Shown here: in pieces, positions 38,431 through 64,000 of the stretch
Position numbering within the stretch: the first letter of the stretch is position 1
Layout: every line of letters begins with the position of its first letter
From: Tenericutes bacterium MZ-XQ
Lineage (GTDB): Bacteria > Bacillota_I > Bacilli_A > Acholeplasmatales > Acholeplasmataceae
Length of the DNA: 64,000 nucleotides
Reading direction: 5' to 3'
Assembly: GCA_002838205.1 (NCBI GenBank)
Contig: CP017950.1
Location: forward strand, 1,370,858-1,434,857
The notes under the pieces: generated by a model
Databases searched by the model: none
Told to the model about the DNA's origin: nothing
Seen by the model: only the letters and a program-made list of their open reading frames with translations
Position numbers and translations under genes: made by a program

Positions 38431-38563
38431 AAAAGACTCCTTTGTTTAAGATCGGGTATGATTATTGTACCTTCTCTCCAACTTTTTGGAGTCATTTCAT
38501 TATTATATGGGTTGCATGACCTATTTTAATACAACTACGCACCCTTGTAAAATTTACGCACCC
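38431..38563 (-). repeat. Repeat element E1 (short form)
   Basis: A hairpin GACTCC...GGAGTC (38435-38440, 38488-38493) is followed by GGGTTGCATGACC, CCTATTTTAATACAA and two TACGCACCC (38536, 38555). The hairpin sequence differs from other copies but the pairing is kept. The left ATCGTGTAA array is missing. It lies downstream of the minus-strand gene 38764-39279. Confidence 0.75.
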
Positions 38564-40435: not shown

Positions 40436-40728
40436 ATCGTTAAATCGTTAAGTGATCGTGTAAATTGTTAGGTAATTGTTAAAAGGTTAGACATTGACAA
40501 AATTTTTGACCTGTAAAACCTCCAATTTCAGTTCAAAATACAGACCTGGACATTTGCAGATAGGAGAAAATCTCCCTTTCTGCATGAAAAAAGGCTTGAT
40601 ACTAGGGCGAACTACTAATTCGCTTATGTATCAAACCTATGTTTTCTATATGTGTTGCCTGACCTATTTTGATACAATTATGCGCCCTTAGAGAAATCTA
40701 CGCACCCTTAGCAAAGTTTTACGCACCC
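40436..40728 (-). repeat. Repeat element E2
   Basis: Left array: ATCGTTAAA 40436, ATCGTGTAA 40455, AATTGTTAA near 40474. Hairpin GGCTTGATAC/GTATCAAACC (40593-40602, 40628-40637) with inner stem GGGCGA/TCGC-like. Then CCTATTTTGATACAA and three TACGCACCC-type repeats (40679 variant TATGCGCCC, 40699, 40720). Follows the minus-strand protease gene. Confidence 0.85.
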
Positions 40729-42303: not shown

Positions 42304-43917
42304 TTACACCGCCATAATTCCTGATAGGATTTTTATTCTTGCCTCAGCCAAAGTTGGTGTTGTTGCGTCAAAAATTTCCCATAAAATATCAAAATCCTTA
42401 TACATTCTAGAGTCTTCATATATATTCAAAGAGCTATTATATACTGATTTGGGATTAAAGTTATATGCTCTAAATTTTCCTGTGCTGAGTCTTCTAACAA
42501 ATACTGTATGTGCTCCACCAGTAAAATCGATTGTATTAGTAGAAGATTCAATATCATGCCAAAAAGTAATTATGAAATACTGTGATTCTTCAGAATTTGT
42601 AATAAAGGTATCTAGGTTTGTTGTATTTGACATATCAGTAATTCCATAAAGTGATAGTACTTCAGTTACGCTACTAGTCGAACTCCAATACCATTCTACT
42701 AAAGCATCAGCAGTTACAAAAAGTGCAAAAAATGCGGTTTCAACAATTGCAGTTGTAGCAACAACTTGGACATCATAAGTCCACCCAAACCATCTTAACC
42801 ACCAGTCACTAGCATTTTCGAACTGTGCATTAATCAAGGTAGCTGCAATCCCGGGAATAATATCTATTGCAATCGGGATAATATAGTTTTGGATGATTGA
42901 ATCAAAGACTGTTGTCTCCATAAATACCATGTCTTCAGGATATGCGTTTGTTCCAAACAGGCCAAAAGCAACATCAGCATTCATTAATTGTGTTAATGCA
43001 ATCAATGTTGATAAATGCGGATTATATCCAGTGTTTTTTAAAAAGTTAAACATTGCAAAAATACCGCATCCAGCATCACCCAAATTTGATGCTCCATACT
43101 TCCATGAGTCCCCTAATGGATTATTTTGATTTCCAATATAACCATTAAATCCAACTAATTGATTGTTGTTTATAGCTTCTGTTTCTAATGCAGAATTATG
43201 CAAGAAATCATCTCTAGCTATTTCTAACTTTACTTTCCACATAAAATATTTCATGGGTCCATCATACCAAATGTCAGGTGGATTAAGATATTCTTCTGCA
43301 TTGTCTATGGCATCATCGATACCTACAATTGAATTACTGACATTGACAATAGGATATACAATACCACCACTACCCCCACCGCCATCAATCATGATTGCTA
43401 AATAAAAGTTACTGTTTATTGCAACTTCATCAATGTTCTCATTAGATAATAAATCAGTTGAATAAAACGAATACCCATATAAATCAAATTTTATATTTCT
43501 ATTTCCATCAATGTCCTCGAATGCATAGCCATTGAGTGTCATTGTATCTACAACAATATTCTGCGTATCAATCAAACGGACATCTATATATAATAAATCA
43601 AGCGATTTTATATAAAGCACTTCGAAAGATATTAGATAATCGGATAAATCATCGTTGGTTTCTGATAAATACTCAACCGAGTAAAAGTCCTTTACATATC
43701 TATGTCCAATAAACGTAATCTTATCTACATCATTATTTAATTTAGAATTATCAAAAAATTCTAAATATTCTTTCCCTGATTGCTGATTGGCTAATAAATT
43801 AACATCAACAACTCTTTCTAGAGGTTTTAAACTATTTCCTCTGATAAAAGAAACACCCATAAATACTAAAAAGACAACAATAATGACTGCTGAAGTTCTA
43901 ACTAATGATCTTTTCAT
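42304..43917 (-). CDS. Large exported protein with cysteine-peptidase-like C-terminus
   Basis: 537 aa. An N-terminal membrane helix (AVIIVVFLVFMGVSFIRG), a beta domain, then SNLGDAGCGIFAMFNFLKNT near 280 and GGAHTVFVRRLSTGKFRAYN near 480, the Cys and His spacing of C39/NlpC-like peptidases. A hydrophobic segment lies between (DIIPGIAATLINA). First gene of the operon with lipoprotein and serine protease. Secreted effector or self-processing factor is inference. Confidence 0.55.
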   Translation of the reverse strand: MKRSLVRTSAVIIVVFLVFMGVSFIRGNSLKPLERVVDVNLLANQQSGKEYLEFFDNSKLNNDVDKITFIGHRYVKDFYSVEYLSETNDDLSDYLISFEVLYIKSLDLLYIDVRLIDTQNIVVDTMTLNGYAFEDIDGNRNIKFDLYGYSFYSTDLLSNENIDEVAINSNFYLAIMIDGGGGSGGIVYPIVNVSNSIVGIDDAIDNAEEYLNPPDIWYDGPMKYFMWKVKLEIARDDFLHNSALETEAINNNQLVGFNGYIGNQNNPLGDSWKYGASNLGDAGCGIFAMFNFLKNTGYNPHLSTLIALTQLMNADVAFGLFGTNAYPEDMVFMETTVFDSIIQNYIIPIAIDIIPGIAATLINAQFENASDWWLRWFGWTYDVQVVATTAIVETAFFALFVTADALVEWYWSSTSSVTEVLSLYGITDMSNTTNLDTFITNSEESQYFIITFWHDIESSTNTIDFTGGAHTVFVRRLSTGKFRAYNFNPKSVYNSSLNIYEDSRMYKDFDILWEIFDATTPTLAEARIKILSGIMAV

Positions 43918-44023: not shown

Positions 44024-44228
44024 TTATATCAAAATGGGTAATTCGCTATCTATTAGGTTAAACACTTTAGCACATGTCTAGAAGTATAAATGGCTTAACA
44101 AAGACAAAAAAAGTCCGATACAAATCGTATCAGACCAATTCTCGTCTAATGGGTTGTATGACCTATTTTAATACAATTACGCACCCCAAGTGAGAATTCA
44201 CGCACCCTACACTCTTTTTTACGCACCT
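44024..44228 (-). repeat. Repeat element E3
   Basis: Contains TTAAACACTTTAGCACATG, hairpin GTCCGATAC/GTATCAGAC (44113-44121, 44127-44135), GGGTTGTATGACCTATTTTA, and TACGCACCC-type repeats at 44178, 44198 (TCACGCACCC) and 44220. The left ATCGTGTAA array is not seen. It follows HTH-membrane gene A. Confidence 0.8.
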
Positions 44229-44316: not shown

Positions 44317-45507
44317 CTAATTGTGTTCATGTTTTCTTCCCTTCCAAACAAAGTAATACACTAAACATCCAAAAATATAAAGTGAAAGCAAAGGCGCAGT
44401 AAAATTTGAATATAAGATAATACCCATTTCTGTTTTTGATAGATCAATTCTGTATCCTATTGCTTGATTGTCATCAAACTCAAATTTAACATAATCTAAT
44501 TTTGTTATGAATGAATATGTTTCATTTGACATGACCAGTTCATAGTCATCATCAAATGTATAAATAAATTCATAAGTATCTTCATTATATACCAAATTAT
44601 CATCTGTATTTTGCTGACTTTCTAATAGTGATAGATACTTCAACTGGTAATATCTATCTGTGGCTTCTTCTTTATCGTATACTGAATAAGAAACAAAAGA
44701 ATTATCTGTTTTGATTGCCAAATCATATGAATCGGATATTGTGATTATTAGGAATGGTATAAATAAAACTACTAATAAGGTACCATTGAAGATTTGCCAT
44801 CTTACATTTAACTTATTCAAGAAAGAAATCTTAAAAATTCTTATAATATAATACGTCAAGATTGCTCTAACCGCTGTTAATGAATATGAATAGATAAATC
44901 TATAAAAGACAAAATCTAATTTCAATACCATGCTTGATCCAACATTATAAAATCCAGCAAATATAATGGTAGAGATGTTTAAATATAAAAGAAAAAAGCT
45001 GCTATGGAAACCTAAATTTAATAATTTGTTTTTTTCATTTATATTAATGTCTTTAACTTGTAGTCTTAAGTAGTTAACATTAATGCCTTGTATTACCAAG
45101 CCAATAACTATAATTATTATACCAACACCCATTCCTAAGGATGAGTTAGTTGTTATCTCACCTAAAACAATTATTGCTGCATTACTTAAAAGCCAAAGAC
45201 CTATGGAAACAATCAGATAATTAATGTAATTGTTCTTGATTCTTGAAACAACATAACTTGAAATACCAGCTTCCTTTTCAATATTTTTTGAAGTTCTTTT
45301 TGTTCCCCTTAAAATATCATCAACTGAAACTTCATAAAAGTCTGCTAATATGATCAAAGTAGCAACTTCGGGTATGCCTATACCGTTTTCCCATTTGCTA
45401 ACAGTTTTGTTTGAAACATTCAAATATTCTGCTAACTCCATTTGTGTTAATCCTTTTGAAATTCTTAAAGATTTTAAAAACTCTCCTGTATTGCTTGAGT
45501 TATTCAT
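44317..45507 (-). CDS. XRE-HTH fused to membrane domain (copy A)
   Basis: 396 aa from ATG 45507 after AGAGGTG. Residues 1-70 are an XRE HTH (LKSLRISKGLTQMELAEYLN); a linker (GTKRTSKNIEKEAGISSYVV) leads to about six membrane helices with one outside acidic loop (SLLESQQNTDDNLVYNEDTY). A DNA-binding head on a membrane sensor suggests one-component signalling. Copy B at 50248-51441 is about 90 percent identical by eye. Confidence 0.75.
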   Translation of the reverse strand: MNNSSNTGEFLKSLRISKGLTQMELAEYLNVSNKTVSKWENGIGIPEVATLIILADFYEVSVDDILRGTKRTSKNIEKEAGISSYVVSRIKNNYINYLIVSIGLWLLSNAAIIVLGEITTNSSLGMGVGIIIIVIGLVIQGINVNYLRLQVKDININEKNKLLNLGFHSSFFLLYLNISTIIFAGFYNVGSSMVLKLDFVFYRFIYSYSLTAVRAILTYYIIRIFKISFLNKLNVRWQIFNGTLLVVLFIPFLIITISDSYDLAIKTDNSFVSYSVYDKEEATDRYYQLKYLSLLESQQNTDDNLVYNEDTYEFIYTFDDDYELVMSNETYSFITKLDYVKFEFDDNQAIGYRIDLSKTEMGIILYSNFTAPLLSLYIFGCLVYYFVWKGRKHEHN

Positions 45508-45895
45508 GCATATCACCTCTTACATAAATTCTATTCTTAAAGAGATATGTTTCAAACCCCTTAAGTGGTTGATTCTGTCTACTTTTAAGTGGAAATTACT
45601 TTTTCTCAACATAGTCTATATTCTGTATTATGGCTAAGCCTTTTTTTCTTAAAATGCTGGATGTGTTTTAGTCTATTTGTAATCCAAAAGCTATCACATT
45701 CAAAAAATGTTAATTTATATAATTATAGCATTTTTCTAAGTTTATATTAAGAGCTTTTCTGAAATAATAAAAATCATCAATTCAATCTAAGTCATTAACA
45801 AAACTAGATATTAATACCGTTAAAAATCCTTTCACTAAATAAATAAACATACCATATTAATATGTTGAATTATTAATCGCGTAGAAAAACTATGA
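45508..45895. promoter_or_regulatory. Upstream region of HTH-membrane gene A
   Basis: Holds direct repeats CCACTTAA (24 bases apart) within 90 bases of the start, possibly an autoregulatory site, and a long AT-rich stretch. No gene seen. Matches the region upstream of copy B, where the second repeat has diverged. Confidence 0.4.
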
Positions 45896-46163
45896 AATCG
45901 TGTAATAATCACTCAAATCGTGTAAAGACATTCTTATTTTGCATCAAAATCGGTTATTCTATATCTTTCATCTTGCCTTTTATAGTACTATACAAAAATA
46001 TATAAATGGCTTTATTAAGAAAAAAAGCCTGATACATAATCGTATCAGACCAATGCTCGTTTAATGGGTTGTGTAACCTATTTTAATACAATTACGCACC
46101 CCTGATGTGATTTTACGCACCCTTGTCAAAATCTACGCACCCCTAGCCAATTTTTACGCACCC
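45896..46163 (-). repeat. Repeat element E4
   Basis: Two ATCGTGTAA about 20 bases apart (near 45896 and 45916), hairpin CCTGATAC/GTATCAGACC (about 46027-46050), GGGTTGTGTAACCTATTTTA, and four TACGCACCC at 46093, 46114, 46134 and 46155 (spacing 21, 20, 21). It lies downstream of gene 46250-47092. Confidence 0.9.
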
Positions 46164-47110: not shown

Positions 47111-47848
47111 TTACTCTTTTTTATGAAAAATAGATCTGATTTGACTAAGAATTCTTCTACCAAAATAATAAATTGATACAGTTATCATTTTTATCAATGA
47201 CCATGGATATCTAAATACTTTTTCATATAGAAAAATGCTGATGTATTTGATCGAATTTCCTATCCTGAAAACAACTTTTCTAGATAATAAAAATATAGTT
47301 TTAATAATTATGTAAACAGGATGAAAGATTTTTTTCAATAATCGCCAAATCCATATCACGACTTTCCAAAAATAATCTAAGATAAAGCGGATAATTTTTC
47401 TAACCTGCATAAATATATTTTTTATAAAACGATAAACTGGTGAGAACAATTTATGTAAAATATTACCAACCCATCTTACAAAAATACCTATGTATTTAAA
47501 AATCCAGCTAATTACTCTATAAATCCATCGACCAATGAATTCTATGATTCGATAAAAAGGTTTTAATATAGGTTTTAAAATACTCATAAGTCTAGTAAAT
47601 ATATTCTTAATAAAGGTATATAATTTCCCAAATATGCGCTTTAGAAATCTGCCTATAACTTCTAAAATTATAATAATTTTGTTAATGATCCTTATTAATT
47701 GATCTGCAATCCAATTTATACCTTTTTCAAGTAACTTAAAAAACCATTTTAAAAACTCGTAAATTGAAATAAGTACAAAAGCAATCGGATATAAGATGAT
47801 TTTGATTGGCCACACCAATACATCTTTGAATGTTATATTCTTTTTCAT
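47111..47848 (-). CDS. Cationic amphipathic helical repeat protein
   Basis: 245 aa, very rich in Lys/Arg, Ile, Phe and Trp, with almost no acidic residues. A repeating unit of about 33-38 residues appears at least four times, marked by P-F/V-Y (LKPFYRIIEFIGRWIYRVIS, FSPVYRFIKNIFMQVRKIIR, FHPVYIIIKTIFLLSRKVVF). Each unit would make a long amphipathic helix lying on a membrane. No known family. A membrane-shaping or membrane-active role is inference. Confidence 0.65.
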   Translation of the reverse strand: MKKNITFKDVLVWPIKIILYPIAFVLISIYEFLKWFFKLLEKGINWIADQLIRIINKIIIILEVIGRFLKRIFGKLYTFIKNIFTRLMSILKPILKPFYRIIEFIGRWIYRVISWIFKYIGIFVRWVGNILHKLFSPVYRFIKNIFMQVRKIIRFILDYFWKVVIWIWRLLKKIFHPVYIIIKTIFLLSRKVVFRIGNSIKYISIFLYEKVFRYPWSLIKMITVSIYYFGRRILSQIRSIFHKKE

Positions 47849-48083: not shown

Positions 48084-48205
48084 CACATCCTTGTAATGTT
48101 GTTAATCTTGTATACTTATTTTCTATAGAATACTAATTAATAATATGATAACATAATATTGCAAATTATATGCGTGCATTTTTAGCACGTTTTGAAAGGA
48201 TATTT

Positions 48206-49144
48206 ATGAATACTACAACTCATTACGCTTTGCATATCGATGATTTAAGAATAAGTAAAGGTCTCACTGTCCATGAATTATGCGAGGGTATTTGCGATGA
48301 TAGTACCTATAGAAGATACAAAACTGGTAATAAAGACATACCCATTTATAAAATCAAAATGTTTTGTGATAAATTAGGGCTTGACCTAGATGAATTTCTA
48401 TCTAATACAATGTCAAAGACATCTATTGAATACAAAAAAATATATAATCTATACTATGCAATGCAAAAAAAAGAATGGAAAATCATCAGTGATTTCATCG
48501 ATAAAAATCAGAATATAGCATTCTTTTATCCATCGAATAAAACACTTTATTCTTTTATAAGCAATACTTACCTATATCAAATAAAAAAGATATATGAAGA
48601 TGAGTATATACAAAATTTAATTAATTTGCTTCCAGGAAGTTTAAATACAGCATCTTTTAATGATGTTATCATACTAGAAAAAATATCTGATATTGAGGTT
48701 AATCATCATATAGTTACCCATTTAAATATCCTAAATGAACTTCTATTGAATCCGAAAAAACTATATCTTATTAAGAACAATGAACATGTGATTTCAAATC
48801 TATATGTAAATGTCTCAATTTTTTACAGTAGATTAAAATTATTTCATGAATCATATGCGATTGCAGAAAAAGGTATATCTTTCAGTTTAAAACATAATCA
48901 ATATAAAGCACTTCCACGTTTGTATTACTTGTTAGCATATACTTTATTCAATTTAGGCAAACAAGTAAGTGCTTTAAAAGAGTTAACATACATGTTTGCT
49001 CATATCTATTCTACTAAGAAGAAAGACCAACTAGATTATTTTCTTAAATTGGTCAATGAAGAATTTGGCCAAGATATTTATGATCAAATGAAAAGTTATC
49101 TCTCTTTATTAGATCTTTCATATAATAACAAAAAAGAGGTTTGA
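48206..49144 (+). CDS. Rgg/PlcR-like HTH-TPR regulator
   Basis: 312 aa from ATG 48206, five bases after GAAAGGA. N-terminal XRE HTH (DDLRISKGLTVHELCEGICD, then STYRRYKTG), then about 240 residues of helix pairs as in Rgg/MutR peptide-sensing regulators. It is divergent from the small-membrane/cationic-repeat operon 123 bases away, which it may control. No peptide pheromone gene was found. Confidence 0.7.
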   Translation: MNTTTHYALHIDDLRISKGLTVHELCEGICDDSTYRRYKTGNKDIPIYKIKMFCDKLGLDLDEFLSNTMSKTSIEYKKIYNLYYAMQKKEWKIISDFIDKNQNIAFFYPSNKTLYSFISNTYLYQIKKIYEDEYIQNLINLLPGSLNTASFNDVIILEKISDIEVNHHIVTHLNILNELLLNPKKLYLIKNNEHVISNLYVNVSIFYSRLKLFHESYAIAEKGISFSLKHNQYKALPRLYYLLAYTLFNLGKQVSALKELTYMFAHIYSTKKKDQLDYFLKLVNEEFGQDIYDQMKSYLSLLDLSYNNKKEV

Positions 49145-49868: not shown

Positions 49869-50162
49869 ATTGTGTAAATTGTTGAGTAATCGTTAAAAGG
49901 TTGAATGAAGAAATCAAATATACTCAGTAAAAGTCCTCAAACCTCTAAAGAACACATAAAATTTGTATTATAGGGAAAAATCTCCCTTTCTGCATGAAAA
50001 AAAGGTCTGATACATGTCTACTTATACTTGACAAGTGCAAATTGTATCAAACCTCTAAATTTTTGTGTGTGAGACTACCTATTTTAATACAATTACGCAC
50101 CCTTTGCAGAATTTACGCACCCCTAGTGATTTTTACGCACCCCTGCTAAAAGTTACGCACCC
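49869..50162 (-). repeat. Repeat element E5
   Basis: ATTGTGTAA 49869 and ATCGTTAAA 49889 (20 apart), hairpin GGTCTGATAC/GTATCAAACC (50004-50013, 50044-50053) with a long loop, CCTATTTTAATACAA, then four TACGCACCC at 50094, 50114, 50134 and 50154, exactly 20 apart. It follows HTH-membrane gene B. Confidence 0.9.
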
Positions 50163-51777: not shown

Positions 51778-52044
51778 ATCGTGTAATAATCACTCAAATC
51801 GTGTATTTCAAATTATAATCGTGTAAAGGCATTCTTATTTTGTATCAAAATCAATTATTCTATATCTATTTAGTTAAACACTTTAGCACATGAAAAAATT
51901 TCAAAATGGCTCTATTAAGACAAAAAAAGTCTGATACATAATCGTATCAGACCAATGCTCGTATAATGGGCTGTATGACCTATTTTAATACAATTACGCA
52001 CCCCTGTTATGATTTTACGCACCCTTGTCAAAATTTACGCACCC
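51778..52044 (-). repeat. Repeat element E6
   Basis: Three ATCGTGTAA-type repeats at 51778, 51798 and 51818 (20 apart), TTAAACACTTTAGCACATG, hairpin GTCTGATAC/GTATCAGAC (51929-51937, 51944-51952), GGGCTGTATGACCTATTTTA, and TACGCACCC at 51995, 52016 and 52036. It follows the GNAT gene. Confidence 0.9.
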
Positions 52045-52614: not shown

Positions 52615-53535
52615 TCAATGTTTAAGTAGCCCTAAAGGAATAACATAAATACCATCAGTTCTTTGATAACAAAGTTCGGTATTTGTAAGTATCATTAAAA
52701 AGGATGGTTTCTTAGTTTTATGGATGTTGGCAATTTTTAGAAGATTTGATGCTGCTTTCTCAACTTCGTTTTCCCCTAATTTAACTTCGATTCCAGCCCA
52801 TCTGCCGTCCCTCAACTCAATAACTAAATCCACTTCTAATCCAGATGAATCATTGTAATGATATACTTCGCCATCCAAAGATTGTGCATATACTCTAACA
52901 TCTCTAGAACAAATAGATTCAAAAAAGAATCCAAATGTTTCAAAGTCTTGTTTTAATTTATCTACTGACAAACCCAAAGCAGCTACAGCAATACTTGGAT
53001 CGACAAATTGCTTTTTATCTGATGTTCTAATCGTACTAGCACTTCTAATGGCCGGAGACCAAGCTTTGATATTTTCTATAATATATAATCTTTGAAGTGC
53101 ATTAGTATAAGATTCATAAGTCTTGTAATCAATGGAAATTCCTTCGTTTTCTTGATCTTTATAAATCGTTTTACTGGTCGCTAATGTCGAAATATTTCTT
53201 GCATAACTACGTATCAGCTTTCTTATTTTTTCTTTATCTTTCTTTGTACCATCTACTTCATCTACATCTTTTGATATAATACTTTCAAGCAAATCTTTTG
53301 GTACAGCAAGTTGTTCTTTTAATGGCAATTCTAAAATACCTGGCCATCCACCTCGGCAAATGTAGTGTGCTATATCGTTGATACTTGTTTGAGATTTTGT
53401 CACATTAATTTTTTTGCCTTCAAATAAATCAAATAATGATACAGTACCTTTAGATTCTCCACTTTCATATAAACTCATAGGACGCATATAAATGGAATTA
53501 ATTCTTCCAGTTCCTGTGTGTGATATATTAATGTT
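52615..53535 (-). pseudogene. 5'-truncated COG1373-type ATPase (DUF4143 part)
   Basis: Reads from an in-frame stop into YITHTGTGRINSIYMRPMSL, the joining segment after the AAA domain in this family, then a full DUF4143 C-terminus (EVDLVIELRDGRWAGIEVKL near the end is the nuclease-like strand). The N-terminal ATPase with Walker motifs is missing. The 290-codon ORF from 53487 could still be translated but lacks ATP binding. Confidence 0.75.
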
Positions 53536-53920
53536 TTGTTTTTCTGTTTGAGTTGTATGGACTTCTCGGAGATTTTATTCATATATACCCTTAAACATCC
53601 TTGCATGGATAATATTTATTTCAGTTGATATAGAAAATCAAGATTAGGTAAATTAATTTGCTTAATCTTTACGCAAACAAATAGATGTTAATAAACACAT
53701 GTAACACATTATGTCTAATAATATCTTAATATAATCTACTCCTATAAAGGTTTTCTGATGGCATATTTTTATTAAATTGGGTTTAGAATTAGGTGTTATT
53801 AAGTATGAATCATGTACATAAAATGAACTACTTTGATGAATGAAACGCGTAAGATTAAATGCTTTCAGTAGTAAAAATGATGAAGTTGTACCATAACATT
53901 TTAACTTTGCCACTCAAAAC
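53536..53920. other. AT-rich region without a supported gene
   Basis: 385 bases. A minus-strand ORF of 83 codons here has no ribosome-binding site and no recognisable domain, so it is not called. Probably a deletion scar beside the truncated ATPase. Confidence 0.4.
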
Positions 53921-55086
53921 CTATTCTGGATTATTTTCAATCAAATCTTGATAGTGCACTTTCAGCTCAGAGACTATTAAATCCCAAGTCAAGTATAGAT
54001 CTTTAAATGCATTATCACATATTTGTTCATATCTATTTGTATCATTAAAAATATCAATTATCGTTTCAGCATACGTGAAAGGTGAATCGTTCGAAATATA
54101 TCCGTTGACACCATCATTAATCGTACTTGCTGTGATCGCTTTTTCAAGAAACAAAGTGGGTGTATGTTGGCTAGCAGCTTCAACTTGAACAAGAGATGAA
54201 GTATCATATAGTGACGGAAATAAGAAAAGATCGGACAATTTGTAGTATGCAGACAATTCCAGTCTATTTATAATTCGTCCTGTAAATATTGTGTCATCAT
54301 GCAGATTGTTTGCACTAATTTTTTTCTTCATAAATACTTCATATGGTCCCGATCCAATAAAAATCATTTTGAATTTGAACTCTTTTTTCTTAAGAATAAT
54401 CAAAGAATCAATTAAGAAATCAATATTTTTGATTTTATCTAAACGACCAACATATAAAAGAACTTTTTGTTCATATTGAATTTGATATTTTTCTCTCAAA
54501 TTATTAGTCAATGTTTCGTCTTCTAAAGGTAATAAATCTGTTGCATTACGGATGACAACAGGCATTCTGTTTGCACCGTATTCATGAAACACTTTTGCAA
54601 CTTCTTCATTTACCGCTATGAGTCGATCACATTTGTTTAATCTTCTCATCAACTCACTTATTGCAATGTCACTGATAAATTTGTTTTTACTATGTTCTAT
54701 GAAATCTTTTTTATATTGGCTATGCAATGTTGCAATGAGTGGAATATTATTCTTCTTAGCATAATGAATTCCATAATTACCTACAGCAAATGGACTATGA
54801 ACATGAATGATATCAAATCTTATGCGTTTAATATTCTTTTCGAAAAACGCATCAAAAACAGGAAACGATATCCGATAATCTAATTTAGGAATTTTAATCG
54901 ACTTTGTTCTTATAATTTTATATGGGAATTCATCAATATTTTCTATTTTCCCGTAGTCTGGTGCAAAAACATAAACTTCAGCAGTCGTAGACATTTTTCT
55001 TGCATAATTGTCTACCACATTAACGACCCCATCAATCATCGGAAAAACACATCTGTAAAAATACCAATCACTAATCTTTTTTCCAT
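53921..55086 (-). pseudogene. GT4 glycosyltransferase with probable 1-base frameshift
   Basis: The ATG at 55086 with AAAGGTG gives MEKRLVIGIFTDVFF, the canonical GT4 start, but then runs out of frame. The following frame continues PMIDGVVNVVDNYARKM to a complete GT4 protein (LYVGRLDKIKN, SLYDTSSLVQVEAASQ). Adding one C in TTTTTCC near 55041 joins the two. It resembles diacylglycerol glucosyltransferases of cell-wall-less and low-GC bacteria. Sequencing error, phase variation or inactivation are all possible. Confidence 0.75.
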
Positions 55087-55177
55087 ATTCACCTTTATTC
55101 ACCTTCTTTTACATGTTTAAAGTTGTCATTTTGAATGGTTTTTAAGAGTAAATTAAAACCACATATTAAGATGTAAT

Positions 55178-55990
55178 TCAAGATTTTCCATCTCTAAAAT
55201 AGTGCATTACATCATCATATCCATACTCATAAATTCTTTTTGAATGCTCTGATGAAAAATCAAGTACTTTCCCTAATCTTCTAGTAGCTTTAATTTCATG
55301 AATCTTAACGTTTTTGTATTTCTGTTTTATAGATCGTATTGATGACAGCATTGAAATTGTAATACATATAATCTCGTCGCAACCAAAATCAATTAATGGT
55401 TTAATGGGTGTGTTATCAAAATACCCTCCATCACGATACTTTCTGCTATTTATTACTACCGGAGGGAAAACAATCGGAATTGAACAGGACGCAACCACCG
55501 TATCAATTTGTAAATCCTTATTTAATTCTTTAAGTGGAATATATTGGACTTGAGAATCTTTTTGAATATAATGAGAAAAAGTAGATTTTAATAAATCAAT
55601 TATTCCTTTGTCAGAGTCTCCGGTGTCTGCTATTGCAATGAAAACATCCTGATTTTTTAACAATTCAAAATCAATATTTTCATCTAATAATTGATTCAAT
55701 TTCTTAATTGAAAACAATCCACTGTCAATTACCTTTAGCTTTTGATCTCTTAGCGTCTTAACAATTGATGGATTATCACCTAAAGGGTTTTCTGGAACAT
55801 TAAACCATATCTCTTTAGCAACATCCATTGCACCTGTTGCAATAAAAATAACATTGACCGCTCCAATTGAAGTTCCAGAAAATGCACTCGCTTTTTGCAA
55901 TATACCTAATTCTTCTAGCGCTTTAAGAGCTCCAATTTGATATGCACCTCTTGCGCCGCCTCCCGATAAACAAATTCCAATTTTTTTCAT
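55178..55990 (-). CDS. Patatin-like phospholipase
   Basis: 270 aa. Oxyanion loop SGGGARGAYQIG near residue 9, nucleophile in SGTSIGAVN near 39 and catalytic Asp in YRDGGYFDN near 187, so the Ser-Asp dyad is complete. No signal peptide. It lies next to the glycolipid-type glycosyltransferase, which fits membrane lipid turnover. Confidence 0.85.
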   Translation of the reverse strand: MKKIGICLSGGGARGAYQIGALKALEELGILQKASAFSGTSIGAVNVIFIATGAMDVAKEIWFNVPENPLGDNPSIVKTLRDQKLKVIDSGLFSIKKLNQLLDENIDFELLKNQDVFIAIADTGDSDKGIIDLLKSTFSHYIQKDSQVQYIPLKELNKDLQIDTVVASCSIPIVFPPVVINSRKYRDGGYFDNTPIKPLIDFGCDEIICITISMLSSIRSIKQKYKNVKIHEIKATRRLGKVLDFSSEHSKRIYEYGYDDVMHYFRDGKS

Positions 55991-56297
55991 AATAATATCC
56001 TTTCAGAAACCTCGGATTTACCATCCTACGAATTTTTTTATTATATGTCTACGAAGTACTCTAAATATGTATAAGATTATTATGACAAGTAGTTAAATTA
56101 GAATACTCCTAAATTCACATCAATGTCTCTATGAAACTGGTAGTTGTAACAATGTATTTGCTACACTAATCGAGAATGATGATATTGTTGATCATGTATG
56201 AACGATATAATTTGGGTAAGCCAAGATCGCGCTTTTTTTCAGTGATTCAATCCCATATAACATTTTCAAAACTTATCACATGATTTAATTCTATGAA
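55991..56297. other. Gap without a supported gene
   Basis: 307 AT-rich bases with the upstream region of the patatin gene. No clear promoter, repeat or RNA recognised. Confidence 0.4.
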
Positions 56298-56828
56298 CTA
56301 TTTATTGAATGTGACGAGATTATATATGATTTCAGTCATCACCTCAACTGATTCTGCCTTTGAGTTTTTAATCCATTCAACCACGATGGAAAAAAGTGCA
56401 CCTTCAAAAAATTTAGCTTTATATTTATCCTCTTTGTCAATACCAAATACTTTTTTTAGCAAATGAGAAATCTCGACTTCAAAAGATTGAAAGATAAGAA
56501 ATTCCAAATTGTTCTTTATGAGCACTTCGAATAACTCAGAGTACTCATCGAAAACTCTGACTATTTTATTAATTGAATTATAAGTAACGTTACCTTCATT
56601 CATGCCTGTTTCTAGATCAGTCATCAATCTCTCATATATCTTTCGTCCTTGATCAATCAAAATATCTTCTTTTGAACCGAAGTTACGATAAAATGTTGGT
56701 CTTGCGACGCCAGCTCTTTTTGTAATATCTTCGATTGAAATCTTTCTGAATGTATTTTTTTTTAGCAAGTATATCAATGCATTATATATCCATTCTTTGC
56801 TTCTAGTGACTTGAATATTTTCTTTCAT
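56298..56828 (-). CDS. TetR/AcrR family regulator
   Basis: 176 aa. TetR HTH near residues 27-55 (KISIEDITKRAGVARPTFYR, then NFGSKEDIL); the helical C-terminus has the usual ligand pocket layout. ATG overlaps the DegV stop. It ends a likely operon that begins with the ABC transporter at 61114, so it probably controls the promoter at 61182-61210. Confidence 0.85.
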   Translation of the reverse strand: MKENIQVTRSKEWIYNALIYLLKKNTFRKISIEDITKRAGVARPTFYRNFGSKEDILIDQGRKIYERLMTDLETGMNEGNVTYNSINKIVRVFDEYSELFEVLIKNNLEFLIFQSFEVEISHLLKKVFGIDKEDKYKAKFFEGALFSIVVEWIKNSKAESVEVMTEIIYNLVTFNK

Positions 56829-57712
56829 ACGTTTCTCCCATTTATATTTAAATTCTCATCGTCATTAAGAAAAATACCAATTCCAATTACATCTGGACCT
56901 ACATGTGCACCTACAACTGGAGTAGATGGTGACTCATATAAATTTTCTAATCCTAGATTATCTTTAATAATGCTCACAAAATACTGTTTCAAATTAGGAT
57001 TTCCTGTATAAATTAAATAGGCTTGATAAGGCTGATTATTCACATACTCCTTTACCAATGTTGTTATTGATAACAGAACCGACTTAATTGTTCGTCTATT
57101 TCCAATTGAAACGATTTCTCCAGATTCTTTTACTTGCAGAACAGGCTTGATGTCTAAGAGCTTGCCAATATATCCCTTCGCATTGCTCAAACGACCATTT
57201 TTAACGAGATAGCTCAAAGAGTTTACAGCAAAATAGATTGTGTTGGTGCGTATCATATTATTGAGCCTGTTTTCAACTGCTTCAAGTGAAAATCCCTCAT
57301 CAATCATTCTTTTTGCTTCCAAAGCAAAAATACCTTCTGAAAAACAAACTGTCTTTGTGTCAAACACCTTAATTTTTAACTTATCTTCAAATTCTTGAGC
57401 TGCCATGATGCAGGAATTGTATGTTCCGCTCATCTTTGCTGAAATCGTAACCACAAAGATTTCTTCAACACCCTCATCTAAGTATTTTTGAAATAATGCC
57501 ATCACTTCGCCAACAGATGGTTGACTAGTCTTAGGCAATAAATCTTTATCGTTTTTTAACATATCGTAGAATTGATCAGCTTTAAGTGTCGAACCATCTT
57601 CATACTCTTCCCCATCAATATAAATTTTGATGCGTAATATTTCAATTCCATGTTCAACTGGATAATAATCTAATCCTCCAGTTGATGTATCAATTACGAT
57701 TCTTTTTTCCAT
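56825..57712 (-). CDS. DegV family fatty-acid-binding protein
   Basis: 295 aa. DTSTGGLDYYPVEHGIEILR, TSQPSVGEVMALF near 80 and the VTISAKMSGTYNS box near 103 match DegV/FakB. Such proteins bind a fatty acid for phosphorylation by FakA. The co-transcribed transporter and TetR fit a lipid-responsive unit. Confidence 0.85.
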   Translation of the reverse strand: MEKRIVIDTSTGGLDYYPVEHGIEILRIKIYIDGEEYEDGSTLKADQFYDMLKNDKDLLPKTSQPSVGEVMALFQKYLDEGVEEIFVVTISAKMSGTYNSCIMAAQEFEDKLKIKVFDTKTVCFSEGIFALEAKRMIDEGFSLEAVENRLNNMIRTNTIYFAVNSLSYLVKNGRLSNAKGYIGKLLDIKPVLQVKESGEIVSIGNRRTIKSVLLSITTLVKEYVNNQPYQAYLIYTGNPNLKQYFVSIIKDNLGLENLYESPSTPVVGAHVGPDVIGIGIFLNDDENLNINGRNV

Positions 57713-57765
57713 ACTTTATCAACCTTTCTAATATCATCTTTATTTTATTTTTGCAACTTTAGACA

Positions 57766-58392
57766 TTAATTCAAAAGCAACTGAGAAAGTTCATCTATAG
57801 ATTCTACAATATAATTTGGATTTGATTCTTCTAATTTCGTTTTTGTTTCGAATCCCCATGTTACTGCTGCTACTTCTAAGGGGATGGATTGACAAGCTAA
57901 CACATCGCGGACTTCATCACCGATGTAGATGGCGTCATTTGTTTTATACCCACTCTTCTTTAACAACTTCTTTATCTTGCGTTTTTTACCTTTCATTTTA
58001 GCTTTCCCCTCTATGAAGGAAAATATGCTGATCTCATTATTAGCCAGAATTTTATTGATATTTGAAACGCTATTTGAAGAAACGATTGCTAATTTGATTT
58101 TTTTATCATTTAGATTAATTAAAAGTTCCTTCATGCCAGGAATTAGGCTGCATTCATCGACAAAGTCAGAAGCTATTTCACGTGATTCCTTGTACATTTT
58201 AGGTAGCTTATGAATTGGAATTCCCAGCTCAAACAATCTTTTTAATCCTGGGTTTGTTTTGAGTTCGCGAATCTCTTCTTTTGATAGTTTCTTCATATTA
58301 TAGCGTTCAGAAATTCGTTGGTATATAATTTCAGATTGATTTACGTTATTACTCAATGTTCCATCTAAATCAAAAATAACTATTTTTTTCAT
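57766..58392 (-). CDS. HAD family hydrolase
   Basis: 208 aa. Motif I DLDGTLSNN, motif II VSSNSVSN near 103, a basic KKRKIKKLLKKSG and motif IV IGDEVRDVLA near 162. Cap helices lie after motif I, as in phosphoglycolate-phosphatase-like members. Substrate unknown. Confidence 0.85.
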   Translation of the reverse strand: MKKIVIFDLDGTLSNNVNQSEIIYQRISERYNMKKLSKEEIRELKTNPGLKRLFELGIPIHKLPKMYKESREIASDFVDECSLIPGMKELLINLNDKKIKLAIVSSNSVSNINKILANNEISIFSFIEGKAKMKGKKRKIKKLLKKSGYKTNDAIYIGDEVRDVLACQSIPLEVAAVTWGFETKTKLEESNPNYIVESIDELSQLLLN

Positions 58393-58435
58393 TTTTTACC
58401 TTCTTCTTTTATGTAATCTAGTAATCAAGAGAAAA

Positions 58436-59323
58436 TTAAACTGGAATATCTTTCTTTGTGAACCAAATAGAACCAACTGTGAAACAGGTTATTGAAATAA
58501 TTAGCAATATTGCAAATTGTATCAAATAAGATGTTGATCCATCAAGAATTGATTGCGTGTTAAACAGTGTTATCATCGTGATATTATTAAAATACCCCAT
58601 CGGTTCAATTCCAATTCCCATATTCATGAACAAATCAGAACCAAACAACCCCAATATTTTTGAGATAAAGAAAATTAAAGCTACTCCGCCTCCTAAAGAT
58701 ATGGAATGTTTGGTATAGTTGAATATTGCAGAAAACATAAACGTGATAGCCCCCATCGCAACCGAGAATAATAATAAGCCCACATTGAGTAATAAAACTT
58801 GATTAATGGCTAAAGAATTTTCAATGGTTAATGCTAATATAACATCAACAACTGCAGTAAAGAAAAACATTAGTACCAATGACATAACCAAAAAGAACAT
58901 TTGTGTCAAAGCTATCTTTGATCTTTTAATCGAAGTGGATAAAACAAACGCCATAGATCCTCTATCAATTTGATTTGCAAACAATTTATTTCCAACAATA
59001 ACTGTATATACTAGAGGCATCAACACCGATACAACTGGATAAAAAATAAAACTAATCAAAACATTTGAATCCATTGATGCAAATCCAGTTAAAATATCTG
59101 GATTGATTCCAATCGCAACAAAAAGTCCATCTAGTGTCAACCCCGCAGATTCTAAAGCCATTATATATGGAATTAATACATTTGGATCAGTGTCACCTGA
59201 AACGGTTATCATTCCCATAGCAAATTTAATAACAATGTAAAGCAAGATTAAAGTAAGCGTTGTGGCTAGCCAAAGACCCCAATTTGATTTTACTGTTTGT
59301 TTTAATAATGGTATACTAATCAT
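58436..59323 (-). CDS. ABC-2 type permease
   Basis: 295 aa from ATG 59323. One cytosolic start, six membrane helices in the ABC-2 arrangement and a large outside loop after helix 1 (MGMITVSGDTDPNVLIPYIM). It works with the two ATPases encoded upstream; a single permease gene implies a homodimer or shared use. Confidence 0.8.
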   Translation of the reverse strand: MISIPLLKQTVKSNWGLWLATTLTLILLYIVIKFAMGMITVSGDTDPNVLIPYIMALESAGLTLDGLFVAIGINPDILTGFASMDSNVLISFIFYPVVSVLMPLVYTVIVGNKLFANQIDRGSMAFVLSTSIKRSKIALTQMFFLVMSLVLMFFFTAVVDVILALTIENSLAINQVLLLNVGLLLFSVAMGAITFMFSAIFNYTKHSISLGGGVALIFFISKILGLFGSDLFMNMGIGIEPMGYFNNITMITLFNTQSILDGSTSYLIQFAILLIISITCFTVGSIWFTKKDIPV

Positions 59324-60218
59324 TTTTGTTATCCTCACTTATTTTTTTCAAAAAATATTTTTTTAGCGTGTATTTGACCTCTTTGATATATTTCACTTTA
59401 TATTGAGATAATTCTTCCATAAATTTGTTAATTTGTTCATCTTTAATGTCAACTGTTGTTTGTAAATATTTATCATTTTTAGAAGTCAAATAGATATTCT
59501 CATTCATGTATTTTTGATAATCTATTTCATTTTCAAATCCTATTTTATATGTCTTTAACTCGTTGTGGCGGATCTTTTTCATGTCAACGACATCAACAAT
59601 TCTACCATTTTGTAAAAGTGCTACACGATCACATGTTTTTTCTACCTCTTCGAATACGTGACTACTCATAAATATGGTCGCTCCTCTTTGTTTTGCCTCA
59701 ATTAACACATCAACAAATATATCTCTCATTAGAGGGTCAAGCCCTGTAGACGGTTCATCAAGAATTAAAATATCCGGTTTAGCCATAAACGCAGATACAA
59801 TGGCCGTTTTTTGTTTCATACCCTTACTCATATGCTTTAAGTTTGCTGTTGTGTCTAATCCGAATTTCTTGATCAAATAATTGGCATAATCCAAATTTTT
59901 TAACCCAATCATTTCAGCCTGACTTTTTATAAATGCATCACCATCACCAATATCAGGGAATGATATCTCTCCAGGAACATAGCCTATATGTTTCATAATT
60001 TGTGTTGTGTTGTAGTTCACTTCTTGGTCTAAAATATATACACTTCCAGCATTGGGCCTGATAAAACCCATCAAGTTTCTGATTGTTGTTGTTTTTCCAC
60101 TCCCATTTGTCCCAACAAAGCCAAATATTTCACCTTGTTTTACTTCAAGATTAATGTTAAAAATACCTCTCGATAATCCATAATCTTTCGTCAAATTCTG
60201 AATTTCAATGATACTCAT
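59316..60218 (-). CDS. ABC transporter ATPase
   Basis: 300 aa. Walker A GTNGSGKTT near 36, signature MSKGMKQKTAI near 132 and Walker B ILILDEPSTGLDP near 152. The C-terminal 80 residues are a family-specific tail. ATG overlaps the upstream stop. Confidence 0.9.
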   Translation of the reverse strand: MSIIEIQNLTKDYGLSRGIFNINLEVKQGEIFGFVGTNGSGKTTTIRNLMGFIRPNAGSVYILDQEVNYNTTQIMKHIGYVPGEISFPDIGDGDAFIKSQAEMIGLKNLDYANYLIKKFGLDTTANLKHMSKGMKQKTAIVSAFMAKPDILILDEPSTGLDPLMRDIFVDVLIEAKQRGATIFMSSHVFEEVEKTCDRVALLQNGRIVDVVDMKKIRHNELKTYKIGFENEIDYQKYMNENIYLTSKNDKYLQTTVDIKDEQINKFMEELSQYKVKYIKEVKYTLKKYFLKKISEDNKND

Positions 60219-61114
60219 AATGATTGTTCACCCTCTCTATCTTTATAGTATTTTAGAAAATAGTCTTCCAGGGTAAATTGTGATTCAGAGAAATATTTAA
60301 TTTGATATGCCGAAATAGTCTTGATTAACCGATTTATTTCTTTGTCATTAATTGCAACCCTTACTTTTCTTTTGGTTTTATTACTGTAAACTATATTCCT
60401 ATTTGATTTCATAAATTGATTAAAATCTTCATCTTGCAAAAATTCAATTTTATAAACCTTGTTTTCGTTATTTCTTATCGTATCAGTATCAATCGTTGAA
60501 ATGATTTTTCCATCTTTGATAATTGATAATCGATCACAACATGCGTCAACTTCTTCAAATATATGCGTTGATAGTAAAATTGTTTTCCCTCTTTGTTTTT
60601 CACTCTTAATTAATTCTATAAACTTATTCTGCATGATTGGATCCAACCCACTTGTGGGCTCATCCAGGATTAAAATGTTAGGATCTGACATAAACGCTGA
60701 AACAATGGCTAATTTACGTTTGTCGCCAATCGACATTTTCCTCATACTTTGATCCGGGTTTAATTCAAACATATCAAGTAAATAACTGATTCGAGAATCA
60801 TCTGCATGTTTCATTTTTTTCATCATTTCTATGAACTCTAATCCACTCAATCCCTCAGGCAAAGCAACTTCTCCAGGAATATATCCAACTTCATCTAAAA
60901 TATCATAGTAATTCTTCCAGCAATCGTGATTATTGATTGTTGCAATACCCTTGCCGGGTTGAGAAAAACCCATGAGCATTCTTATAGTGGTTGTCTTCCC
61001 AGCTCCATTTGGTCCAAGAAAACCATATACTTCGCCTTTTTTAACTTCAAATGATATATCAAAAACACCTCTATTAAATCCAAAATCTTTTGTTAGATTT
61101 TTCACTTCTATCAT
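60215..61114 (-). CDS. ABC transporter ATPase
   Basis: 299 aa. Walker A GPNGAGKTT near 36, altered signature MSIGDKRKLAI near 132 and Walker B ILILDEPTSGLDP near 152. Paralogous to the next gene, with a similar tail (YKIEFLQDEDFNQFMKS). First gene after the operon promoter; the pair probably forms a heterodimer. Confidence 0.9.
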   Translation of the reverse strand: MIEVKNLTKDFGFNRGVFDISFEVKKGEVYGFLGPNGAGKTTTIRMLMGFSQPGKGIATINNHDCWKNYYDILDEVGYIPGEVALPEGLSGLEFIEMMKKMKHADDSRISYLLDMFELNPDQSMRKMSIGDKRKLAIVSAFMSDPNILILDEPTSGLDPIMQNKFIELIKSEKQRGKTILLSTHIFEEVDACCDRLSIIKDGKIISTIDTDTIRNNENKVYKIEFLQDEDFNQFMKSNRNIVYSNKTKRKVRVAINDKEINRLIKTISAYQIKYFSESQFTLEDYFLKYYKDREGEQSL

Positions 61115-61181
61115 TTTTAAATTCTCCTATTATAATCTTATCTTCAGAAACTCTACTGTAGTAAGTAAAGTTTCTATTAGC

Positions 61182-61210
61182 ATTATATCATTCACATGTT
61201 ACATTTGCAA
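61182..61210 (-). promoter_or_regulatory. Promoter of ABC-DegV-TetR operon
   Basis: TTGCAA (complement of 61205-61210), 17 bases, TATAAT (complement of 61182-61187). Confidence 0.8.
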
Positions 61211-61232
61211 CACTTTTAACGTTTGTAACATG
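61195..61232. promoter_or_regulatory. Inverted repeat around the operon promoter
   Basis: CATGTTACA (61195-61203) and TGTAACATG (61224-61232) are perfect 9-base arms around the -35. Likely operator for the TetR protein at 56298. Confidence 0.65.
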
Positions 61233-61308
61233 AAAATACAAGTTTTCACAATAAGATTTTTTTCATAAAAATAAAATCAAACCTCCAGATACTATGTTAG
61301 CTCTCTTT

Positions 61309-62898
61309 TTATCTTATTTTTGATTCAACTCCGTTGTGAAACATAAAAGTGATACTTGAATCTCTATGTACCGTTGCCCCATCTACTAAGAGCATCCAAA
61401 TTCTCTCATTCCAGTCGCTAAGTTCATCTTCTGATTTAGATAGGCTTGCAATAAAAGCTTGCATTTTAAGTGCTTGTCCTTGTCTGTCATTTCTTTGTTT
61501 AAGAAGTTCTTCTCGTTTGGCTTGCAACTTATCGTAACGATTTGATAACTCTTCATACTTCTTGTTGTAATTTTCTATGCTATCACTTGTTTTAGAGTTT
61601 TCATTTACCAGCTTGCTTACCAACTCTGAAGTTATGAATAGTTCATCATCTAAATCTCTGATTTCATCATCAATCTTTGTCATATCAGTCAGTAATTCGA
61701 TGATTTCTTCTGAGTCTTGAATGATCCTTCTCTTATCTTCCATAACGAGATTATAAGCCTTGAGGAACTTGAGTTTAATATCCTCTTCTTTAAGATTAGG
61801 TGTTAGACACTTTTCTTTATGTTTATGAAACTTATTATTGCATTGATATACAAATCTTGAGTATTTGCTATTGGAATGCCATTTCTTTTTGCCATAGAAT
61901 CCTCCACAGTCCTCACATATCAGTTTTGATGCAAATACATCAGATGATGAGTATTTAGCACCAATTCTTTCTCTTCGTTTAAGTTCAATTTGAACCTGTT
62001 CCCACATATCTCTGTCAATGATCGCTGGATGACTATTTTCAACATAGTACTGAGGAATTTGTCCGTTATTCTTAACCATTTTATGATCAAGATAGTTTTC
62101 AGTATAAGTCTTTTGAAGGAGTGCATCACCTTTATACTTCTCATTGGTAAGAATTGAATTCACATTATTTTTGGTCCAATTCGTTTTACCAGTGGGGGTT
62201 TTTACTTGCTTTGATTTCAAATAGTTTGCTATGCCTGTTGCAGTCTTTCCTTCAACCAAAAACATCTTATAAATCATTTTGACAATCTCTGCTTGATCTT
62301 CATCAATCACAATCTTTTCATCTTCTTTCTTATAGCCTAGAAACGATTTATAAGCAAATGAAACTTTACCCTGTTGAAAGCCGACTCTCTTACCCCATGT
62401 CACGTTTTGACTGATTGAACGTGATTCTTCTTGAGCGATTGATGCCATGATCGTTAATATGAGTTCACTTTTGGGATCTAGCGTCCAGAGATTTTCTTTT
62501 TCGAAGAACACCTCAACACCGTTATCTTTTAGTTTTCTAACATAAGATATGGTGTCTAATGTATTTCTTGCGAATCTTGATATGGACTTAGTAATGATTA
62601 GATTTATCTTTCCATTTAATGCGTCTGCGATCATTTTATTAAAGCCTACACGTCTTTTTGTATTAGTCCCAGAGATACCTTCATCTGCATAAACGTTTAT
62701 ATACTCCCAATCTGGCTTATCTTCTATAAACTTCTTGTAATAGGTGACTTGAGCTTCATAGCTAGTATATTGTTCGTCTGAGTTGGTAGAAACTCTTGCA
62801 TAGGCTGCGACTTTCTTAACTGCCATTTGATTAAGTGGCATTTGTGTTAATGGGTGAATCGTAGATGGAATGACAGTAACCTTAGCCATGATGAACAC
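61309..62898 (-). CDS. Large serine recombinase
   Basis: 529 aa. Resolvase domain with nucleophile in AAYARVSTNSDEQYTS near 32, LIITKSISRFARNTLD near 97 and ESRSISQNVTWG near 155; then a recombinase domain, zinc ribbon (KLICEDCGGFYGKKKW near 338) and coiled coil. It overlaps the next recombinase by 17 bases. Tandem recombinases like these sit at the ends of ICE-like or SCC-like elements. Confidence 0.9.
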   Translation of the reverse strand: MFIMAKVTVIPSTIHPLTQMPLNQMAVKKVAAYARVSTNSDEQYTSYEAQVTYYKKFIEDKPDWEYINVYADEGISGTNTKRRVGFNKMIADALNGKINLIITKSISRFARNTLDTISYVRKLKDNGVEVFFEKENLWTLDPKSELILTIMASIAQEESRSISQNVTWGKRVGFQQGKVSFAYKSFLGYKKEDEKIVIDEDQAEIVKMIYKMFLVEGKTATGIANYLKSKQVKTPTGKTNWTKNNVNSILTNEKYKGDALLQKTYTENYLDHKMVKNNGQIPQYYVENSHPAIIDRDMWEQVQIELKRRERIGAKYSSSDVFASKLICEDCGGFYGKKKWHSNSKYSRFVYQCNNKFHKHKEKCLTPNLKEEDIKLKFLKAYNLVMEDKRRIIQDSEEIIELLTDMTKIDDEIRDLDDELFITSELVSKLVNENSKTSDSIENYNKKYEELSNRYDKLQAKREELLKQRNDRQGQALKMQAFIASLSKSEDELSDWNERIWMLLVDGATVHRDSSITFMFHNGVESKIR

Positions 62899-64000
62899 CT
62901 CCCTGATGTTGTTTCAATGCTCTTTGTTTTGCCTTCTCCCTCATTTCAGGCGTCCAAGCTTCACTTCTTGAGCTTTTGTTCCAAGACTGTTCAACACTTG
63001 TTTCATCTTTAAATTGAAAAATAAGTTTGTTTTCGGGCATCACGAGTACCTGCTTAACTTTTGATTTTAATACTTCTTCATCAAAGGATCTAATTTTCAA
63101 TATTGTTTTAGCAGCTTTTTTAATTTCTCTGTCTGGTACTTGTTTAGATGGGCAAGCTTCTATTCCTTTCGTTACTGAAAGTGAACATTTCCATATTTCG
63201 TTATGTGGTGTGGTTTTATGAGTATATGCTTTACCACAAATCCCACACTTTATCATGCCCTTGAAAGCTTGAGGTTTTTTATTTATTCTTGGTTTGATTC
63301 TTTCAGCTCGTTGTTTTCTTATTTCTTGAACTTTATCAAATAGATCCTTGCTAATAATCGCCTCATGATTCTTTTTAACTGCATACTGGTCAAGCTCACC
63401 TGAATTGATGATTTTTCTTTTAGATAAGTGATTCTCTCTAAATGTCTTTTGAAGTATCAGATCGCCTGTGTAGTTATAGTTGGATAATATGGTCATGATG
63501 CTTGATCTATTCCATTTTGCTGAATTCTTCGGAATGATACCTCGTTCATCAAGGATTTTGCCGATTGTATCGGCACCATATCCAGCAATGTATAATTGAT
63601 AAATCTGTTGTACGATCTTAGCTTCATCTGGTATTACGATGAAACGTTTGTCTTCAAGTGCATATCCTAAACATGGTTTGCCGCCCCATAGAATACCTTG
63701 CTCAAAGTCTTTCTTGATTCTCCATTTCATGTTCTCCGATGTGCTTCTGGATTCCTCTTGAGCAAATGTCGCAAGGAACGTTAGAATCATTTCACCTTCA
63801 CCGCTCAAGGTATGCACGTTCTGTTCCTCAAAGAACACATCAATACCTAATGACTTCAATTCTCTAACGGTTTCTAATAAAATGACTGTGTTTCGAGCAA
63901 ATCTTGATATCGATTTGGTGATGATCATATCTATCTTCCCCGCTCTACTATCCTCAAGTAAATTTTGAAACTCCAATCGTGAATCTTTAGTACCAGTTAA
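62882..64000 (-). CDS. Serine recombinase, N-terminus outside window
   Basis: The frame is open to the window edge (LTGTKDSRLEFQNLLEDSRA), so the start and catalytic serine lie outside. Visible: MIITKSISRFARNT, FEEQNVHTLSGEGEMI, recombinase domain, zinc ribbon (MIKCGICGKAYTHKTTPHNE) and a charged tail rich in K/Q/H (EKAKQRALKQHQGGVHHG). Partner of 61309-62898. Confidence 0.9.
   Translation of the reverse strand, partial: LTGTKDSRLEFQNLLEDSRAGKIDMIITKSISRFARNTVILLETVRELKSLGIDVFFEEQNVHTLSGEGEMILTFLATFAQEESRSTSENMKWRIKKDFEQGILWGGKPCLGYALEDKRFIVIPDEAKIVQQIYQLYIAGYGADTIGKILDERGIIPKNSAKWNRSSIMTILSNYNYTGDLILQKTFRENHLSKRKIINSGELDQYAVKKNHEAIISKDLFDKVQEIRKQRAERIKPRINKKPQAFKGMIKCGICGKAYTHKTTPHNEIWKCSLSVTKGIEACPSKQVPDREIKKAAKTILKIRSFDEEVLKSKVKQVLVMPENKLIFQFKDETSVEQSWNKSSRSEAWTPEMREKAKQRALKQHQGGVHHG

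Follow-up and report, generated by a model that had tools for sequence, protein, structure and literature searches.

The short repeats of the window (the whole stretch of DNA that was analysed, 64,000 nucleotides in length) appear to belong to attachment sites that stack phages and small gene cassettes behind tRNA genes, an assignment that is well supported by sequence comparison across related genomes; we infer that an adjacent pair of serine recombinases is the enzyme acting at these sites. The reading as a whole, in which the sites are the attachment sites of a Ccr-like serine recombinase pair and the phased repeats are binding sites for an accessory protein, is assigned a probability of roughly two in three. 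The arrangement would represent an apparently undescribed cassette-array system of free-living mycoplasma relatives, probably run by the serine recombinase pair, and no description of integron-like cassette arrays in Mollicutes was found in the literature searched.

The sequence TACGCACCC is present in 16 exact copies, all on the plus strand of the 64-kb window, as compared to 0.02 expected in dinucleotide shuffles, which establishes that the repeats noted in the initial annotation are real. On the minus strand this unit reads GGGTGCGTAA, and the exact and near-match copies together form six sites, at 38.5, 40.7, 44.2, 46.1, 50.1 and 52.0 kb. The start positions given in that annotation are accurate, apart from one that is off by a single base (44199, listed as 44198) and three that mark inexact copies: those at 40679 (TATGCGCCC, with 2 mismatches), at 44199 (CACGCACCC) and at 44220 (TACGCACCT). 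A genome-wide count, which the annotation had proposed together with an analysis of spacing, found pairs of exact copies at such a spacing within the window only (host genome of 2.157 Mb), and variant repeats (GGGGTGTAAAA) at two further host loci, at 736-740 kb and 1604-1617 kb. The claimed range of 19-22 bp and phasing at two helical turns hold generally: 238 spacings, from 149 distinct junctions in many genomes, display a mean of 20.4 bp (sd 0.61, range 18-22) and a resultant length of 0.94 at 10.5 bp. The further claim that the bases between the repeats vary is correct only in part, because the unit extends as GGGTGCGTAAAWTTT, with TA or CA usual before the next G. The number of repeats ranges from one to five, and the repeat families (GGTGCGTAA, GGTGCTAAT and GGTGTAAAA) differ in sequence and display the same spacing.

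On the minus strand, each site consists of one to five copies of GGGTGCGTAA, a 25-bp arm (TTGTATYAAAATAGGTNNNNNNNNN), the dinucleotide CA and then a sharp edge; when the six sites of the window are aligned, the repeats abut a fixed TTGTATYAAAATAGGT, which is followed by approximately 9 variable bases, the CA and a terminator (Table 1). Of 199 related genomes, 58, most of them from the same family, yielded this anatomy in pattern searches, as did 81 named stretches, chiefly from Acholeplasmataceae and other Tenericutes or Bacilli bins. A set of 149 distinct junctions was assembled, mainly from Acholeplasmataceae, for which all counts take in several sites per genome as well as related genomes and are thus not counts of independent events. 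The CA occupies positions 26-27 in 137 of the 149 junctions; in 129 of 131, a distance of 10 bp separates the start of the final repeat from the arm. The inverse of the outer ten bases of the arm, TTTGATACAA, is found at an offset of 16 after the CA in 70 of the 149 (matching at 8 or more of 10 bases), as compared to 0-3 at each of the other offsets from 1 to 45. Because the inverted outer motif often lies in the right half at an equal distance, the full site spans 25+2+25 bp and possesses dyad symmetry. The motif is nevertheless missing from about half of the right flanks and some junctions fall within genes, both of which count against the reading as a whole.

Table 1. Repeats, attachment sites and associated genes of the window, in window coordinates
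Feature	Position	Strand	Details
Repeats, 3 x GGGTGCGTAA	51995..52044	-	spacing 20-21
Attachment site	51942..51993	-	arm 51969-51993, CA 51967-51968, right arm 51942-51966; terminator 51928-51953
Repeats, 4 x GGGTGCGTAA	50094..50162	-	spacing 20
Attachment site	50041..50092	-	arm 50068-50092, CA 50066-50067, right arm 50041-50065
Repeats, 4 x GGGTGCGTAA	46093..46163	-	spacing 20-21; array of the initial annotation
Attachment site	46040..46091	-	arm 46067-46091, CA 46065-46066, right arm 46040-46064; terminator 46026-46051
Repeats, 3	44178..44228	-	one mismatch in two of them
Attachment site	44125..44176	-	arm 44152-44176, CA 44150-44151, right arm 44125-44149; terminator 44112-44136
Repeats, 3	40679..40728	-	arm-proximal one degenerate
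Attachment site	40626..40677	-	arm 40653-40677, CA 40651-40652, right arm 40626-40650
Repeats, 2	38536..38563	-	spacing 19
Attachment site	38483..38534	-	arm 38510-38534, CA 38508-38509, right arm 38483-38507
Core of left-end type, TTGCATCAAAATCGG	45880..45939	+	inner AATCGTGTAA repeats at ~20 bp; similar cores at 51840 and 44024
Cargo: HTH_3 protein with membrane segments	44317..45516	-	near copy at 50248-51450
Large serine recombinase B, 529 aa	61309..62898	-	Resolvase + Recombinase + Zn_ribbon_recom
Large serine recombinase A	62882..63976	-	continues past window end; open frame of 438 aa in genome
Distal part of prophage	53530..64000	-	95% identical to L195

An all-against-all BLAST comparison placed the edge of the moved DNA at the CA: alignments that share the DNA left of a site end mostly at its A (57 ends), with a smaller peak of 16 ends after AAAATAGG, and identical cargo is joined to differing flanks at that edge. 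In particular, an ATPase/Crp unit of 3.2 kb, 99.1% identical between the host genome and that of a second species, MO-XQ (G001), is followed by other DNA after the CA edge; two viral contigs (L225 and L229) are identical over 3,027 bp and diverge directly after the CA; and a CA-edge site also terminates a prophage unit (at least 13.2 kb) that two genomes share at 99.65% identity. The initial annotation had likened the repeats to transposase end sites, and the kind of element that it named, a DNA-level site, is borne out insofar as the repeats abut the 25-bp arm, the outer edge of which corresponds to the breakpoint of the moved DNA; the protein binding that it proposed remains a prediction from sequence. 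Two observations speak against the reading. A heavy-metal resistance unit of 7.1 kb, shared at 99.7% identity by the chromosome of zrk7 and the plasmid of MO-XQ (L143, L183, L144 and L198), has edges 50-65 bases past the CA; a near copy of the unit is also found on the MO-XQ chromosome. At one prophage end, the 9 bases left of the CA differ among three genomes in which the remainder is identical. Precise cleavage at CA leaves this pattern unexplained; homologous recombination between sites would account for it. The left boundary of the prophage in the host genome is interrupted by an IS, and no core-like left end of the prophage was found in G202; L197 contains a chimeric join.

The CA-edge sites, which are present on chromosomes, one plasmid and viral contigs, are organized into arrays. 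In 119 of 126 cases the gene left of a site points toward that site, with a median distance of 201 bp from stop codon to site, and 13 co-oriented junctions make up the array at 638-675 kb of MO-XQ. The MO-XQ array also contains a second end family, which ends in ...CATAATGACAAGACA, is preceded by AGTAAAGTTAGTCTAGAGGTT repeats (~22 bp, unrelated to the GGGTGCGTAA type) or by GTAAAACTCCGT repeats, and meets right flanks of the kinds already described at the CA; phased repeats ahead of such an edge are therefore not tied to one sequence. Many of the cassettes contain no recombinase gene. At the head of the window's island, TTACACGATT repeats recur at 20 bp, and thus the left end also possesses phased repeats. 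The distal part of a prophage in the window carries genes for the recombinase pair, an ABC transporter and HAD, DegV, TetR, patatin and glycosyltransferase proteins. BLAST searches gave no match among phage records, and among plasmids a match to that of MO-XQ only.

The arrays are anchored at tRNA genes; the sole match in an Rfam search was a tRNA. The MO-XQ array abuts the CCA of a tRNA-Leu gene, and the bases that follow correspond to the right arm of the sites. An ARAGORN search of all loci identified 11 tRNA genes (of the types Leu-GAG, Leu-CAG, Gly-TCC, Gly-GCC, Pro-CGG and Ser-GGA) in which TATNNAAAGCATAGGTTTGATACAA comes after the CCA, again at an offset of 16. In the host genome, a tRNA-Leu(GAG) gene (1452742-1452831, 18 kb past the end of the window) heads the window's array, and tRNA-Gly(TCC) and tRNA-Ser(GGA) genes head the sites at 1604-1617 kb and 736-740 kb, respectively. 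The nearest upstream tRNA gene is co-oriented with the junction in all 27 cases for which one lies in the available DNA, and 45 of 172 right flanks agree with the 3' flank of a tRNA gene at 30 or more of 40 positions, as compared to none in a shifted control. The right flank of L203 provides an empty-target comparison, being identical (40/40) to the uninterrupted tRNA-Ser(GGA) flank of another species, and that of the 38483..38534 site in the window matches the 3' flank of a relative's tRNA-Leu(TAG) gene at 37 of 40 positions. Units usually begin with a terminator, because the joint cuts the tRNA off from its own. No duplicated tRNA fragment was found at the right end: the tRNA genes end in CACCA or CTCCA and the right ends in ACCCA or ACACA, leaving CA as the shared core.

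The most probable enzyme is encoded close to these sites. A pair of adjacent serine recombinase genes, with Resolvase, Recombinase and zinc-ribbon domains (Pfam), lies 150 bp from a site in L225, 0.67 kb in L226 and 3.3 kb in L097; in L193-L195 and in the window the pair is parted from the site by conversion genes. It points toward the site in every case, and its gene order is the same in L097, L193-L195 and the window. As in large serine recombinase elements, a gene with these three domains adjoins the site (though at a greater distance in L097, L193-L195 and the window), the site spans approximately 50 bp (25+2+25) with dyad symmetry, and a 2-bp core is all that is common to the left and right junctions; judged from its sequence, a palindrome built around such a short core is in keeping with that enzyme class. 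The nearest curated model is CcrB, for which the scores (115-143 bits) lie far below the cut-off of 900. Genes for a SHOCT-like protein and for an HTH/zinc-finger protein precede those of the recombinases; a core-like TTGTATCAAAAAAGGTAR is found inside the SHOCT-like gene of the operon in several phages (L206 ~260-290, L225 3287 and L097 6301). More distant relatives of recombinase B were located at 80 loci, many on short contigs, and in most of these the repeats described here were not seen downstream, a result that counts against the pair but, given the short contigs, is mostly uninformative. Some of the distant relatives are followed by repeats of the GAGTTTCAC or TGAAACC type, spaced by 19-21 bp (L254 ~2200 and L259 ~980 past the recombinase), which are perhaps other repeat families.

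An unlikely but substantive alternative is that the same attachment sites and tRNA anchoring are served by another, perhaps transient, enzyme, such as a tyrosine recombinase from other phages, with the serine-recombinase phages merely sitting in the array. In favour of this, and against the serine pair, two papers assign tRNA targets to tyrosine and not to serine integrases (PMC4383910, PMC10654092), for the former of which they are the rule (PMC4383910); two site-bearing genomes, G003 (5 sites) and G021 (9 sites), gave no match to PF07508; and the change of 9 bp left of the CA at one junction is what an overlap region would give. Against this stand the proximity of the pair in L225 (150 bp), the right end that shares only a CA with the tRNA gene, and the failure to find any tyrosine recombinase adjoining the sites in the loci examined, save loci chosen for one and the prophage fragment of the window. 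The candidate tyrosine recombinases of 310-330 aa encoded by relatives were considered and set aside, as they are located in phage or replication modules away from the sites.

Tandem sites of approximately 20 bp next to a CA-3' end are also characteristic of Tn7-type transposon ends, and the sites could in principle be the right ends of a DDE transposon (Tn7- or Mu-like) with 5'-TG...CA-3' termini, tandem transposase sites and a fixed distance to a target motif. Beyond that resemblance, the CA is common to several end families. A transposon of this class is nevertheless improbable, as neither Mu-transpos_C (TnsB) nor TniQ was found in 8 genomes (in a search run without a positive control) and there is no target duplication, the left flank reading CACCA, CTCCA or CGCCA and the right end ACCCA, ACACA or AGCCA.

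Modules of pdif type, moved by the housekeeping recombinases XerC and XerD, would explain why arrays often contain no local recombinase, and XerC/XerD-like genes are present in the searched genomes; the dif-like sites near xerD (CCTATAATGTATATTATGTTAAC and CGTATAATATATATTATGTAAAC), however, are unlike the arm, in which an 11+6+11 layout is not seen, and this possibility is considered very improbable. Even less is to be said for operators and a promoter of a small RNA that ends at the terminator. A TAAAAT resembling a -10 box does occur 18 bp downstream of the repeat, with a terminator 50-110 nt further on, but the first base of that -10 is a C in 51% of sites, a TTGTAGCAAAAT variant occurs, there is no conserved -35, and the terminator sequences differ; a small-RNA gene with activator sites was in fact the initial idea, abandoned on account of the edges and the swap of right flanks. 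In a consensus fold of 16 aligned sites, no compensatory change was seen at any of the 11 pairs, and a function at the RNA level is not supported. That the repeats are plasmid-type iterons of a replication origin, as was also suggested, has next to no probability: they share direct repeats at two helical turns, but here six sites are dispersed through the window and others occupy further chromosomal loci behind tRNA genes, each ending a cargo unit, rather than forming a replication origin or a single array beside a rep gene.

According to the reading in which the serine recombinase pair acts at these sites, the repeats would serve as an accessory arm to the recombination sites at which mobile units terminate. 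The Ccr-like pair, carried by a family of related prophages (including that at 61309-63976 of the window), would cut at CA, and circles would integrate behind tRNA 3' ends; cassettes that contain no recombinase would be moved in trans, such that arrays might grow in the manner of integrons or of composite SCC islands. An accessory protein, bound on one face of the DNA along the phased repeats, could build or steer the synaptic complex: the phasing at two turns, the fixed distance to the arm and the retention across repeat families argue for such one-face binding, and a candidate for the repeat binder is the HTH/zinc-finger protein whose gene lies two genes upstream of the recombinase pair.

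Several known systems resemble these arrays in part. The SCCmec and enterococcal cassette chromosomes likewise combine an adjacent pair of large serine recombinases (CcrAB) with cargo cassettes, and dyad attachment sites of approximately 50 bp have been described for the enterococcal pair (PMC6222049); unlike those elements, which target the 3' end of rlmH, the present ones target tRNA 3' ends, possess phased repeats at their ends and form longer arrays of small cassettes. Integrons (IntI/attC) share the long co-oriented arrays of one- to three-gene units, the recombination site that closes every unit at its 3' end and the many units with no local integrase. They differ in that no IntI-type enzyme adjoins the sites in the loci examined here, a tRNA gene heads the array, units usually begin with a terminator, and the edge reads AACMCA, a sequence in which no GTTRRRY was seen and which does not appear attC-like. 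Stacking at tRNA 3' ends is shared with the islands and satellites of the Islander set, which by contrast duplicate a tRNA fragment and carry a tyrosine integrase (PMC4383910); in the present arrays nothing beyond CA is shared, and the joint follows the CCA. The broadest formulation, a so far undescribed integron-like system of wall-less bacteria in which a pair of large serine recombinases stacks phages and recombinase-free cassettes immediately downstream of the tRNA-encoded CCA, using several interchangeable end families that each possess their own two-turn-phased repeats, has about even odds.

To our knowledge, no other serine-recombinase system targets tRNA genes, and such an activity would be new for the enzyme class, as far as a non-exhaustive literature search indicates. 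If correct, this reading would add a new route of gene capture and a source of new multi-target recombinases, as well as an accessory repeat array that may control a serine recombinase. The CA-edge sites may also explain much of the variable gene content of Acholeplasmataceae.

Several further features of the window were noted. A MazE-like antitoxin gene is present in two copies, of which that at 39777-40336 is followed by an 88-aa reading frame resembling a toxin partner and that at 49488-49769 stands alone. A protein of 245 aa composed of aromatic- and lysine-rich amphipathic repeats (47111-47848, minus strand) gave no match in Pfam or NCBIfam, and the sole large plus-strand gene of the array (48170-49144) encodes an HTH protein similar to peptide-pheromone receptors. 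Near 53525, prophage DNA abuts a 5'-truncated DUF4143 gene at ...ATATCACACACA/GGAACTGG (the slash marking the joint), an edge that has neither arm nor repeats, and a second prophage-like region encodes a 217-aa tyrosine recombinase (10996-11649, minus strand). Finally, a three-gene cassette at 40890-43917 encodes a Trypsin_2 protein, a likely lipoprotein and an exported protein, relatives of which are found at 3004-4741 of the viral contig L227.
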